A DNA stretch of 64,000 nucleotides from an uncultured Sulfurovum sp. GTDB taxonomy: Bacteria; Campylobacterota; Campylobacteria; Campylobacterales; Sulfurovaceae. The notes under the pieces are model-generated. The model was not told the DNA's origin, made no database searches, and worked only from the letters and a program-made list of their open reading frames with translations. Shown piece by piece: positions 1-39,116 of the stretch. The DNA lies in the NCBI GenBank assembly GCA_913055205.1, contig CAJXJN010000010.1, forward strand, positions 1-64,000, in the 5' to 3' direction. The position numbers and the translations under genes were made by a program. Position 1 is the first letter of the stretch. Every line of letters starts with the position of its first letter.

Positions 1-793
<793 letters not shown>

Positions 794-22370: not shown

Positions 22371-22404
22371 GAAGGTATATAAAAGTAAAATCTTATATAT
22401 AATG

Positions 22405-22482
22405 CTCTTCCCTACGCCGGTATTAACCAGATCAAGTTCAACGGGTTTATTATCTCAGCTGAGAATTCAGCACCCCGAGAGT
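22405..22482 (-). promoter_or_regulatory. TPP riboswitch upstream of the TonB-dependent receptor
   Basis: The minus strand carries the thi-box consensus in order: CTCGGGGTGC, CTGAGA, GTTGAACTTGATCTGGTTAA and TACCGGCGTAGGGAAG. This is an almost textbook aptamer. It controls the receptor-thiBPQ-kinase operon. The promoter is not clear: only about 45 bp separate the aptamer from the thiD stop, so read-through from the thiC operon may contribute. Confidence 0.95.
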
Positions 22483-22526
22483 ATTGAGAAGAAAAATATA
22501 CTTAAATAAGATAAATTTTTCCTTAA

Positions 22527-23964: not shown

Positions 23965-23974
23965 ATTTATCCTT

Positions 23975-24077
23975 GTAGGGTGCGTTTGCCAACGCACCTT
24001 TTATACATTATGCCTTTTAGTAAACTTTTTATTTTATACAACTTTTATCACATGGTGCGTTGGCAAACGCACCCTAC
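23975..24077. repeat. GTAG-headed REP-like inverted pair inside the thi operon
   Basis: A 24-bp sequence GTAGGGTGCGTTTGCC... (23975-23998) recurs as its exact reverse complement at 24054-24077. Each copy has an 8-bp stem GGTGCGTT/AACGCACC just after GTAG, with GTAG ends outward. The pair fills the thiG-thiE gap. Its TAG forms the thiG stop codon, and its other end lies 10 bp from the thiE start. The layout matches the pair at 16169-16305 although the hairpin sequence differs. Confidence 0.82.
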
Positions 24078-24892
24078 GAGAACTGGTGCCAAAAAGGCGT
24101 TCCAACCGTAGGTGTAGAAGGAGAGGCAAACTCCCTTTGTTGCATTGCACCCGACTCATAGCCTAAACGCCCGGCTTCCACAGCATATTTAAATGCATTT
24201 GCCATCTTTACCGGATCTTGTGCCAGTGCAATAGCAGAGTTCAGCAATACTCCATCATAACCCAACTCCATCGCCTGCGCAGCATGTGACGGTTTTCCTA
24301 TACCTGCATCTATAATCAGTTTCAGCTCCGGGAACTTCTCTCTGATCGCCTTCAGTTTAGAAGGATTCATCAAACCTTTTCCTGAACCTATCATTGACCC
24401 CCACGGCATGATGATCTTACAACCAACATCTGCCAATTTTTTTGCAACTACCAAGTCATCAGTCGTATAAGGGAAGACTTCAAATCCCTCTTTTATAAGT
24501 ACTTCTGCTGCTTTTACTGTTTCAAACGGATCCGGCTGCAGGTTGTACTGGTCTCCAATGACTTCGAGTTTTATCCAGTTGGTTCCAAAGACCTCTCTTG
24601 CCATTTGAGCCGTGGTAATCGCTTCTTTAGCAGAGTGACAACCTGCTGTATTGGGCAGGACATGAATATTTAAAGATTTAATAATCTCCCAAAAGTCCCC
24701 GCCGGCTTTGTCTCCGGCTGCTTGACGGCGAAGTGCCACAGTCACGATCTGTGCTTCAGAGGTTTTAATCGCTTCTTCCATATTGGCAGGAGAAGGATAG
24801 AGTGCAGAGCCAATGAGCAGTCTGCTGCTTAACGTTTTTCCGCCTATTTCCCATGTGTTGTTTTCTTCTATTGTATGTAACTTTTTTGTCAT
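24074..24892 (-). CDS. thiG: Thiazole synthase
   Basis: ThiG builds the thiazole ring from DXP, dehydroglycine and ThiS thiocarboxylate. The protein has [39 protein letters not shown] and the glycine-rich [12 protein letters not shown] and [25 protein letters not shown] segments. I chose the ATG at 24892 (272 residues) with AAGGTGG upstream, 1 nt after thiS; a GTG at 24901 would overlap thiS. The stop codon is contributed by a REP element, so the extreme C-terminus may have been altered by its insertion. Confidence 0.95.
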
Positions 24893-26234: not shown

Positions 26235-28124
<1,890 letters not shown>

Positions 28125-28225
28125 TTAAAATTAATGATGTAATTTCGTTGGGAAGAGGTGTAAATAAGTAGCGATGGATTCTATAATGAAATACATTACG
28201 GATCATCAAAGTAGTTATATACAAG

Positions 28226-28314
28226 TCTCTTCCTTACGCCGGTATGATCCGGTTCAAGTTCAACGGGTAGGCTTTTTTGGCCTTCTCAGCTACTTTCGTG
28301 TAGCACCCCGAGAG
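28226..28314 (-). promoter_or_regulatory. TPP riboswitch upstream of thiC
   Basis: The minus strand reads CTCTCGGGGTGC, a variable P3 hairpin, CTGAGA, ACCCGTTGAACTTGAACCGG and TACCGGCGTAAGGAAGAG. This is a complete thi-box with a 4-bp P1 (CTCT/AGAG). Downstream, CTCTTCCC (28150-28157) can pair with GGAAGAG of the aptamer edge or more weakly with GGGAA of the thiC Shine-Dalgarno, suggesting the same translational design as the second riboswitch. Confidence 0.95.
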
Positions 28315-28420
28315 GTTGATATTGCACTATATGTTAAATAGGGTAAAAAATACCTTAATTAACTAAAGAATGGAAATTTTCCATTCATCATGTGTTAAAA
28401 TGATAAAAAATCACTCCTCA
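28315..28420. other. Gap upstream of the thiC riboswitch with a perfect palindrome
   Basis: No gene is seen. It must hold the thiC promoter, but no convincing hexamer pair was found; TATAGT near 28325 is a weak -10 candidate. A 19-bp palindrome GAATGGAAA-T-TTTCCATTC lies at 28368-28386. It could be an operator or a terminator of the upstream gene, but it lacks a clear T-tail. Confidence 0.4.
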
Positions 28421-28506
28421 GTTTCGCCTAGATGGCTACGCATACGCTCCGACCATTTCGGTTTCAAAGCTATAAACGATAAGCAGTTATCGTTTATTCT
28501 ACGCTT
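28421..28506 (-). repeat. Single diverged copy of the GCAG-loop hairpin repeat
   Basis: This segment aligns with the 81-bp unit of the array at 36810-37207. Shared features are a GGCT...ACGCTCCGACC part, a CGGTTTC part and an 11-bp perfect stem ATAAACGATAA/TTATCGTTTAT around an invariant GCAG loop (28472-28497). Four stem positions differ from the array and all four are compensated on the other arm. It starts inside the end of the small gene at 28494, whose TAA stop is in the stem. Confidence 0.7.
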
Positions 28507-28751
28507 TTCATCTCAACAAGTTCAGCTAAAAGTTCTTCTATTTCATCTTCTTCCAGCTCATTGCGTCCAAGCTCTTCAATAATGGCGAAACACTCTGTAC
28601 GCATCTCACGCATCTCTTCAAGATCATCTTTTTGTTCTTTGGATGCTGACTTAGCTTTGTCTATGGCTTCAAAAAGTTCATCTATTGCTGCTTCCAGGTC
28701 TGGAATAATTTCTAATTCTAAAAGATTTTTTAATTTGTCTGCTGATGTCAT
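28494..28751 (-). CDS. Small acidic coiled-coil protein of unknown function
   Basis: An 85-residue, strongly acidic, almost entirely helical protein (many Glu, Leu and Ile in heptad-like spacing) with a single cysteine and no signal peptide. The start is supported by an AAGGATAT-like stretch upstream. I do not recognise the family. It lies upstream of the thi operon in the same orientation, separated by the hairpin repeat and the thiC leader. Confidence 0.65.
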   Translation of the reverse strand: MTSADKLKNLLELEIIPDLEAAIDELFEAIDKAKSASKEQKDDLEEMREMRTECFAIIEELGRNELEEDEIEELLAELVEMKSVE

Positions 28752-28828: not shown

Positions 28829-28890
28829 GATCCCCGGGTGCCGTGACCGCAGGGAGGAAATACCCTTGGGTGCAAACCCGAGGATGACGA
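28829..28890. repeat. GTCATCCT-family palindromic repeat, single copy
   Basis: An intergenic imperfect hairpin runs from GGATCCCCGGGTG to CCCGAGGATGAC. It carries the GTCATCCTCG...GGGGATCC ends seen in the elements at 33451, 39031 and 41421, with a different middle. It lies between mrp and the small acidic gene and may act as a 3' transcript end. It is not coding. Confidence 0.55.
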
Positions 28891-33442: not shown

Positions 33443-33450
33443 AAATCCTT

Positions 33451-33480
33451 GTCATCCTCGTGCCTGACACGGGGATCGAC
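33451..33480. repeat. GTCATCCTCG-family palindromic repeat, single copy
   Basis: A 30-bp element GTCATCCTCGTGCCTGACAC...GGGGATCGAC folds on itself (ATCCTCGTG against CACGGGGAT). It belongs to the same short-repeat family as the sites at 28829, 39031 and 41421. It lies between the Sat-like gene and pgpA in the same transcription unit. Confidence 0.6.
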
Positions 33481-33501
33481 AATATAAACGGAGAATAAAT
33501 T

Positions 33502-36809: not shown

Positions 36810-37207
36810 TAAGCTATGGCTTTGGCATATACGCTTCGTCGTGCGTGAATACAAACGACAAACCATTGTCATTTGCTCAACCCCTTGCCTGCACGGCTCC
36901 ACTTCGTTCCGACCGTTACGGTTCCGTAGCTACAAACAACAAGCAGTTGTTGTTTGCTTAACGCTTTGCCTGCACGGCTCCACTTCGTTCCGACCGTTAC
37001 GGTTCCGTAGCTGCAAACAACAAGCAGTTGTTGTTTGCTTAACGCCTTACCTGCACGGCTCCACTTCGTTCTGACCGTTACGGTTCCGTAGCTGCAAACA
37101 ACAAGCAGTTGTTGTTTGCTTAACGCCTTACCTGCACGGCTCCACTTCGTTCTGACCGTTACGGTTCCGTAGCTGCAAACAACAAGCAGTTGTTGTTTGC
37201 TTAACGC
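36810..37207 (-). repeat. 81-bp tandem repeat array of GCAG-loop hairpins
   Basis: Four near-identical units begin at 36888, 36969, 37050 and 37131 (period exactly 81 bp; the last is cut at 37207), preceded by a diverged fifth unit (about 36810-36887). Each has a stem GCAAACAACAA/TTGTTGTTTGC (11 bp, loop GCAG) and a GACCGTTACGGTTC hairpin. The array fills the gap between the DUF2868 gene and maeB and touches the maeB stop codon. One plus-strand frame stays open through part of the array only because 81 is divisible by three; I do not consider it coding. Confidence 0.9.
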
Positions 37208-38481
37208 TACTCATCTTCAGGACATCCATATATGATGCATCTCAGGCGTTCTTTATAGGCTTCATCATCATAACTGTCTACACGTGCAACACCCTCTTCA
37301 AATGCTGTTCTGGCAACAGCAGAGGCAACCCATATAAGTGCTTCTTTATTGAATGGTAATGGGATGATATGCTCTTTCCCGTACTCTATATGGTCATTAT
37401 GATAAGCTGCTTTTACATAGTATGGTACAGGCTCTTTTGCCAGCGTTGCAAGTGCTTTGGCTGCTGCCATTTTCATACCTTCAGTGATCTTCTTCGCTCG
37501 TACATCCAGTGCCCCTCTAAAGATAAAAGGAAAACCAAGTACATTATTTGTCTGGTTAGGATAGTCGGAACGCCCTGTTGCAATGATAGCATCATCTCTT
37601 ACCTCTTTTATCTCCTCAGGGAGTATCTCCGGTACAGGGTTTGCCAAGGCAAAGATGACTGGTTCAGGTGCCATCTTGGCTACCATCTCTTTTGTGAGCG
37701 CTCCTGCAACACTCAGTCCCAAGAACATATCTGCCCCTTCTATGGCTTCATAGAGTCTTGTTGCTGCCGTCTCTACGGCAAAGGGCATTTTGTACTTGTT
37801 AAGGTCTGTTCTATTGGTATTGATCACCCCTTTAGAGTCACACATGATAATATGTCTTACACCTAAAGCCTGATACATCTTCGCACATGAAATACCTGCT
37901 GCACCTGCTCCATTAATGACTATTTTGATCTCATCTACTTTTTTGCCTGTCAGTTCTAAAACATTCATGAGTCCAGCCGTAGTGATAATAGCTGTACCGT
38001 GTTGGTCATCATGAAATACAGGGATATCCAGTTCTTCTTTAAGTATGCGTTCTATCTCAAAACATTTAGGTGCTTTAATGTCTTCAAGGTTGATACCGCC
38101 AAACGTAGGAGCAATGGCTTTACATGTAGCAACTATCTCCTCCACACTGTGTACATCCAACTCTATGTCAAAGGCATCCACATTGGCAAACTTTTTAAAG
38201 AGTACCGATTTCCCTTCCATCACAGGTTTGGAAGCAAGCGGACCGATGTCTCCAAGACCCAGTACTGCTGTACCGTCAGAGACGACAGCAACAAGATTTG
38301 CACGGTTGGTATATTCAAAAGAGAGGTTTTCATCTTTGGCTATCTCAAGGCAAGGTATAGCTACCCCGGGAGTGTACGCAAGGGAAAGTTCATATTGGGA
38401 GTCACAAGGCTTAGTCAGGTCTATACCTATCTTTCCCTGTTTATGATATGCTAATACTTTTTCTTTGGTTATTTCTGACAT
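37207..38481 (-). CDS. maeB: Malic enzyme
   Basis: Oxidative decarboxylation of malate to pyruvate with NAD(P), or its reverse, linking the reductive TCA cycle to pyruvate. The 424-residue length is the short bacterial form without the phosphotransacetylase domain. It has SLAYTPGVA, the VSDGTAVLGLGDIG motif, DDQHGTA, a GAGAAGI nucleotide-binding motif, GRSDYPNQTNNVLGFPFIFRG and the catalytic-type GPLASKPVMEGK lysine. The stop codon abuts the tandem repeat array. Confidence 0.95.
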   Translation of the reverse strand: MSEITKEKVLAYHKQGKIGIDLTKPCDSQYELSLAYTPGVAIPCLEIAKDENLSFEYTNRANLVAVVSDGTAVLGLGDIGPLASKPVMEGKSVLFKKFANVDAFDIELDVHSVEEIVATCKAIAPTFGGINLEDIKAPKCFEIERILKEELDIPVFHDDQHGTAIITTAGLMNVLELTGKKVDEIKIVINGAGAAGISCAKMYQALGVRHIIMCDSKGVINTNRTDLNKYKMPFAVETAATRLYEAIEGADMFLGLSVAGALTKEMVAKMAPEPVIFALANPVPEILPEEIKEVRDDAIIATGRSDYPNQTNNVLGFPFIFRGALDVRAKKITEGMKMAAAKALATLAKEPVPYYVKAAYHNDHIEYGKEHIIPLPFNKEALIWVASAVARTAFEEGVARVDSYDDEAYKERLRCIIYGCPEDE

Positions 38482-39030: not shown

Positions 39031-39116
39031 CGTCGTCCTCGTACTTGATACAGGGATCCATTAACTTTAATAATAGCCTAAATTTGTAGATTCCCGTGTC
39101 AAGCACGAGAATGACA
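39031..39116. repeat. Inverted pair of GTCATYCTCG-family repeats
   Basis: The left copy (39031-39060, CGTCGTCCTCGTACTTGATA...) and right copy (39088-39116, AGATTCCCGTGTCAAGCACG...) are imperfect reverse complements about 27 bp apart, and each is itself palindromic. Together they can form a long hairpin between two minus-strand genes and might attenuate transcription. Confidence 0.7.

Follow-up and report, generated by a model that had tools for sequence, protein, structure and literature searches.

The repeat unit at position 28421 of the window (the whole stretch of 64,000 nucleotides that was analysed, from an uncultured Sulfurovum sp.) belongs to a family of ~83-base folded insertions that was found only in the Campylobacterota and is apparently previously undescribed. 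Our leading explanation, in which our confidence is evenly balanced, is that these are non-autonomous REP-like insertion elements that are probably transposed as a single strand, land 3' of TGAG and are retained as folded 3'-UTR RNA. A sequence-only reading of the window had proposed, from a comparison of this unit with an array of similar units 8 kb away, that either selection on a folded structure or mobility requiring a hairpin was at work. The first proposal is supported by covariation in 99 distinct units and in same-gene copies across species, and the second by a clean pair of filled and empty sites at the 28421 locus itself.

Anatomy of the element

The sequence at 28472-28497 is ATAAACGATAA-GCAG-TTATCGTTTAT, an 11-bp stem with a GCAG loop just as first described, and a pattern search found it once in the window, with 0 matches expected. 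The inner hairpin of an array unit is GCAAACAACAA-GCAG-TTGTTGTTTGC. Exactly four pairs differ between the two 11-bp stems, all of them compensated as had been claimed, yet four changes between one pair of copies are insufficient evidence taken alone. The likeness extends beyond the stem, and the concern that the loci might be similar only there does not hold: BLASTN of the 111-bp region against its own genome returned four other copies with 84-85% identity over ~85 nt (E 2.8e-20 to 3.5e-16). Alignment of 20 units from this genome gave a repeat unit of 84-85 nt (Table 1), including an outer stem and a second hairpin that the sequence-only reading had missed.

In gene-sense orientation, which for the element at 28421 is the minus strand, the consensus begins TGAG NNNC GTTAAG (10-bp stem) CTGC (10-bp stem) TAG NNNC and continues GRAACC G-A YGG U C GGA RY NNN RY GNA G CCR YGNAGGC. 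The outer 5-bp stem is joined to the inner hairpin across an asymmetric internal loop, and the second hairpin is separate.

Table 1. Coordinates in the window of the element, its parts and its neighbours
Feature	Position	Strand	Basis or remark
Element proper, inserted 83 nt	28425..28507	-	removal restores GAGATGA+AAACTGAGGAGTGA; same 83-nt insertion and same junction in G013
Covariance-model unit, host TGA included at left end	28426..28510	-	93.4 bits, E 2.0e-19, for a unit that belonged to the model's training set
Host bases of left target motif ANRTGA (here AGATGA)	28508..28513	-	present in empty relatives
Outer stem, 5' arm AAAGC	28503..28507	-	unit alignment, covariation
Outer stem, 3' arm GCTTT	28466..28470	-	unit alignment, covariation
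Inner hairpin, 11-bp stem, loop CTGC (GCAG on + strand)	28472..28497	-	sequence match, covariation
Second hairpin: CC/GG base, YGG/CCR stem, GGA/GUA internal loop, RY..RY tip	28427..28461	-	covariation
Host gene, 85 aa, AF0941-like, PF14591	28494..28751	-	TAA stop 28494-28496 inside element
Displaced native end of the 85-aa host gene, AAACTGAGGAGTGA	28411..28424	-	junction comparison
Separate intrinsic-terminator-like hairpin, downstream of element	28368..28386	-	
Array of the element in tandem: four full units of ~81 nt, then a 3'-truncated fifth	36850..37213	-	behind malic-enzyme gene 37207-38481

No known RNA family accounts for the element, as Rfam 15 at the gathering threshold returned only TPP riboswitches and 16S rRNA over the window, and a permissive Rfam search of the array gave only sub-threshold, implausible matches. 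The two TPP riboswitches (RF00059) lie on the minus strand at 22392-22487 and 28214-28320; the latter precedes thiC (26235-28115) and sits just downstream of the element and the terminator-like hairpin. The 16S rRNA gene is partial, at the edge of the window (1-793, minus strand). We rejected an intrinsic terminator because there is no T-run after either hairpin and a separate terminator-like hairpin lies downstream. A conserved peptide or read-through was likewise rejected, since the GTTAAG loop varies in length (5 or 6 nt) and these indels break any reading frame.

Structure and covariation

Among the 20 units from the element's own genome, 97.7% of pair cells were standard, 16 of the 24 pairs had changed on both sides, and the covariation score was 0.467 compared with 0.185 in shuffles; RNAalifold, run unguided, predicted a nearly identical structure. 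We extended the analysis to 99 distinct units, and here covariation, which the sequence-only reading had suggested examining over all copies, was strong in all three main helices. Overall, 97.6% of cells were paired and 20 of the 24 pairs showed changes on both sides, with 98.1% paired and nine of ten pairs doubly changed in the inner stem, and 95.4% paired and five of five doubly changed in the outer stem. Doubly changed cells numbered 377, against 100 in shuffles, and sliding the pair partners abolished the signal. These 99 units were aligned by fitting to the covariance model and kinship among the sequences inflates the cell counts, although the margins are large. They derive from 78 loci that were chosen on hairpin 2 alone, so that hairpin 1 constitutes an independent test.

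G-U pairs (100) outnumbered A-C mismatches (40; p = 4e-7), which indicates that the folding strand is the gene-sense, or mRNA-sense, strand. In the minimum-energy fold of the 28421 copy by itself (z = -2.5) the inner hairpin is kept and the rest is rearranged; the predicted consensus structure rests on the alignment and not on the fold of a single copy.

Hairpin 2 occurs in several forms. Variants with extended tips were found at L067, L085 and L371, and a second class, YGGUGGARYNNNRYGACCCR, at L063, L065, L086, L089 and L093, with a G-C pair and GA/GA in place of the C-G pair and GUA loop. In the copy L028 (G000 C1:53202-53318), the second hairpin is interrupted by an insertion of ~35 nt (CTACCCTGACCGAAGGGAGAAAATCCCCTTGGGTA); similar sequence at 28830-28880 of the window indicates that this is probably yet another dispersed repeat.

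Insertion site

The 85-aa host gene has orthologs in more than 20 relatives, nearly all of which end natively without the element, mostly in ..GAGATGAARACNGAR..stop. Among the orthologs inspected, the element was present only in our genome (G000) and in one relative, G013. The G000 junction reads GAGATGA, then the 83 nt, then AAACTGAGGAGTGA; removing the 83 nt restores GAGATGAAAACTGAGGAGTGA and with it MKTEE-stop, the native gene end of the relatives, and in G013 the sequence after this junction is AAACAGAAGAAGAATAG. The element entered the coding sequence just before the stop and gave the gene a new end, MKSVE-stop, whose last codons are element-encoded, while the old end was left downstream. 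Comparison of the junctions at this locus revealed no target duplication.

The left flank of 88 bare copies conforms to A-N-R-T-G-A-(G/A), with TGAG in 64 of the 88 non-MITE copies and TGAA in 13; the right flank shows no conservation. A sense stop codon fell within the first 23 nt (-1..22) in 17 of 38 bare single copies from long loci, compared with 4.2% at random positions; an antisense stop fell in the same interval in two. The element offers stops in all three frames (TGA at 0, TAG/TAA at 4-10, TAA/TGA at 8-20), a property that would make it tolerable at gene ends. The sequence-only reading had placed the start of the element at the stop codon, as in the array, with TAA inside the stem. 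This holds approximately, but the offset of the stop varies by locus (0, 4, 8, 10, 14, 20), and although the TAA at 28494-28496 does lie inside the inner stem, the stop of the array, TAG at 37207-37209, lies in the outer stem.

Distribution

Far from being the single distant copy first supposed, the element occupies about 40 places in the genome: a search with an array unit found about 20 more places, and the covariance model found 40 at E <= 0.1. The model detected at least one copy in 41 of 60 related genomes, with counts of 0 to 37 among genomes of the genus and lower counts in the order's other families. A DNA pattern covering only hairpin 2, scanned against 84,980 species with one genome for each, matched 78 loci, all in Campylobacterota (Sulfurovum, Nitratifractor, and Campylobacteraceae and Arcobacteraceae MAGs), and from these the covariance model recovered 103 units with both hairpins, 99 of them distinct. 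The phages searched contained no match, and one copy is on a plasmid, a Sulfurovum mangrovi megaplasmid, in a MITE-like context. Our searches of the open literature found no published account of such a repeat. No near-identical bare copies were seen inside one genome, and thus there is no sign of recent activity; decayed solitary copies are few in the element's own genome.

Copies of the element also ride in several short inverted-repeat elements that have different ends and related interiors and have been amplified within single genomes. These carriers include L346-L358 (G009), L365-L366 and L369 (G036), with the interior CAAACATGAG-element-GCCGCCCT..GGGTTGAGTGC..; in an example from G009, GGTTTCACTCGAT...ATCGAGTGAAACC surrounds an element copy. 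At L096 (~1586-1612), a fragment resembling a tRNA 3' end adjoins an element copy downstream of a complete tRNA-Thr, an arrangement like the end of an integrated island.

Copies at the same gene in different species

We searched for eight upstream genes in 14 relatives and compared the gene ends. Filled and empty states occur at the same position behind nuoD, ruvC, der, genes for an RND pump, an MBL hydrolase and a T2SSE ATPase, and others; no element follows the malic-enzyme gene, which precedes the array, in the relatives inspected. Where different species have a copy at the same gene, conservation of the copy often exceeds that of the neighbouring coding sequence. At the 28421 locus, the G000 and G013 elements are 96% identical, the preceding 300 nt (mostly coding) 75%, and the following 84 nt 47%, which is the level of unrelated DNA; a similar contrast between element and neighbours was seen at the MBL, RND and SQR-like loci. 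Same-gene copies across genomes were 0.774 identical, compared with 0.71 for paralogs of one genome (0 of 1000 permutations), and 18 ortholog comparisons yielded 48 compensated, 14 wobble and 13 broken pairs, or 26, 9 and 7, respectively, with each unit taken once.

These observations bear on a tentative alternative, in which we have distinctly less than even confidence: that the element is first and foremost a structured RNA with a regulatory, processing or ribozyme-like function in the 3' UTR, its insertion history incidental and its copies held by host-level selection. That same-gene copies can exceed adjacent coding DNA in conservation and change by compensation speaks for this alternative, as do the conservation of unpaired positions (GTTAAG/TA loop, GRAACC, GGA/GUA), the scarcity of decayed solitary copies and the identity of the folded strand with the mRNA sense strand. 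However, copy number ranges from 0 to 37 among congeners, 11 of 13 relatives lack a copy behind nuoD, the stop codons lie at varying offsets in the element, and copies ride within inverted-repeat elements. Moreover, the upstream genes (malic enzyme, nuoD, ruvC, tsf, tig, SQR, htpX, RNase Y, NosL) form no regulon.

If same-gene copies instead arose by repeated independent insertion of a moving pool into one preferred target (homing), their conservation in situ would be illusory. A specific target motif and a patchy distribution across species are what homing would produce, and several same-gene pairs are only 0.58-0.70 identical, no closer than unrelated copies, so that for these pairs independent re-insertion at favoured targets is possible. 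Other pairs, however, are up to 0.96 identical and share odd features, such as an extra hairpin-2 base in G000 and G013 at the 28421 locus, no similar donor copy was seen in either genome of such pairs, and the permutation result for ortholog identity also argues against homing, which we consider improbable. A mutational origin of the compensated arms, through hairpin template switching ('quasipalindrome correction'), a known mechanism in which one arm is overwritten with the sequence of the other, would account for perfect inner stems that have no function but is disfavoured and most improbable. An asymmetric loop (4-7 nt, mostly 5-6, opposite 2-3 nt) separates the covarying inner and outer stems in each of the 188 distinct full units, and the loops enclosed by the covarying 2-4 bp helices of hairpin 2 are non-complementary; copying between arms would erase both features.

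Relation to known repeats

We regard the element as a variant of the REP-like insertion repeats, notable for its readable insertion sites, strong covariation and missing enzyme. Like REPs and REPtrons mobilised by TnpA-REP (RAYT), it is a small dispersed hairpin repeat, mostly intergenic and at gene ends, with a strand-specific fold (PMC8266576, PMC3733652) and a tetranucleotide immediately 5' of the hairpin; REP ends, too, can provide stop codons for flanking ORFs (PMC3733652). In contrast to REPs of 20-50 nt, it has 83 nt and two different covarying hairpins, a TGAG motif that is on the host side in place of GTAG, about 40 copies per genome and not hundreds, and head-to-tail arrays of ~81 nt, and it does not lie beside Y1 transposase genes. 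Directly 5' of the hairpin we found neither GTAG nor CGTC but ANRTGAG, and no associated Y1 transposase gene flanked by the repeats was found.

The IS200/IS605 family and its non-autonomous derivatives share with the element a left-only target tetranucleotide, subterminal hairpins near both ends, a fixed orientation and a folded strand that has the target at its 5' side (PMC6006769). In our copies, insertion is likewise 3' of a fixed tetra- or pentanucleotide, with subterminal hairpins at both ends of the active strand. Insertion without target duplication, as seen here, is a property of this family, whose Y1 HUH transposase excises and inserts through an ssDNA circle with guide pairing. We found no transposase gene bounded by ends of this kind, and the likeness to IS200/IS605 and REP is one of working, not of membership. 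A pure guide model, in which an arm of the element pairs with the host target, is retained as an idea only, as the whole 5' arm at 28421 can be element-derived.

Dispersed CGTC-tagged palindromes occur in the same genus, in Sulfurovum sp. NBC37-1 and others, also with no associated transposase, but are a different sequence class set apart by the tag (PMC3733652). An inverted pair of another dispersed repeat in the window (33450-33482 and 39084-39116; TGTCATCCTCGTGCCTGACACGGGGATC...) is possibly of this CGTC type. ERIC (RU-1) and other MITE-like enterobacterial repeats are, similarly, non-autonomous, ~100 bp and intergenic or at gene ends (PMC2759123, PMC2229807), whereas the bare element lacks terminal inverted repeats, shows no duplication at the 28421 locus and has a strict orientation and a TGAG target; the true inverted-repeat elements that contain some copies are a different object. 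An integron attC array was rejected, as the units stand head to tail with no cassette and with one GTTRRRY-like box each (by eye), where paired R''/R' boxes are required.

Search for a transposase

Y1_Tnp genes are present in the element's own genome, but a RAYT-driven REP was rejected. Across 37 same-genus genomes, copy number did not correlate with the number of Y1_Tnp genes (Spearman 0.03, p 0.84), just one Y1_Tnp locus among the 13 sampled had an element copy nearby, and the nearly complete genomes G020 (100%) and G029 (99%) have nine and eight copies, respectively, and no Y1_Tnp. By copy-number correlation, proximity and presence across genomes, no transposase linked to the element was found. 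The Y1 gene at C4 of the element's own genome is flanked by a different, GTAG-type palindrome. A 27-nt inverted repeat in the window (23972-24080; GTAGGGTGCGTT...AACGCACC) looks like a GTAG-tagged REP, and palindromes like it flank the L037 Y1 transposase gene of this genome.

Discussion

The explanation that we favour, a REP-like element retained as 3'-UTR RNA, starts from what the comparisons show: the 83-nt unit is inserted in fixed orientation, without target duplication, directly 3' of ANRTGA(G) near a gene end, and it folds in the mRNA-sense strand, the fold being maintained by compensatory changes even in same-gene copies across species. This points to a structure still in use by the cell. 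We propose that the unit would spread as folded single-stranded DNA, through an HUH-type enzyme (IS200/IS605- or TnpA-REP-like) cutting 3' of TGAG, and would accumulate at gene ends where its three-frame stops do least harm. Replication of a circular intermediate beyond a single round would account for tandem arrays that end in a 3'-truncated unit, as would ordinary slippage. Once transcribed, the folded 3'-UTR RNA may protect or process the mRNA end or serve as a protein-binding site, a role that would account for the persistence of intact old copies. Conservation in situ needs more than selfish spread, and an mRNA 3'-UTR role of the fold is the simplest proposal.

REP-type repeats are usually regarded as selfish or as accidental stabilisers of mRNA. 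The combination of orthologous copies, readable insertion sites and compensation makes it possible to test whether the fold is the reason for which a small insertion element is kept. In the Campylobacterota, an unannotated structured element defines both the C-terminus and the 3' end of housekeeping genes, including those for NuoD, RuvC, malic enzyme and a sulfide:quinone reductase-like protein, and poses the puzzle of which enzyme moves it. More speculatively, and in our estimation unlikely, these copies may represent a new class of mobile structured RNA/ssDNA whose fold is needed first for insertion behind stops and later in the host mRNA, and whose enzyme is not RAYT. If this were true, a selfish repeat would have become a 3'-UTR device common to a phylum.
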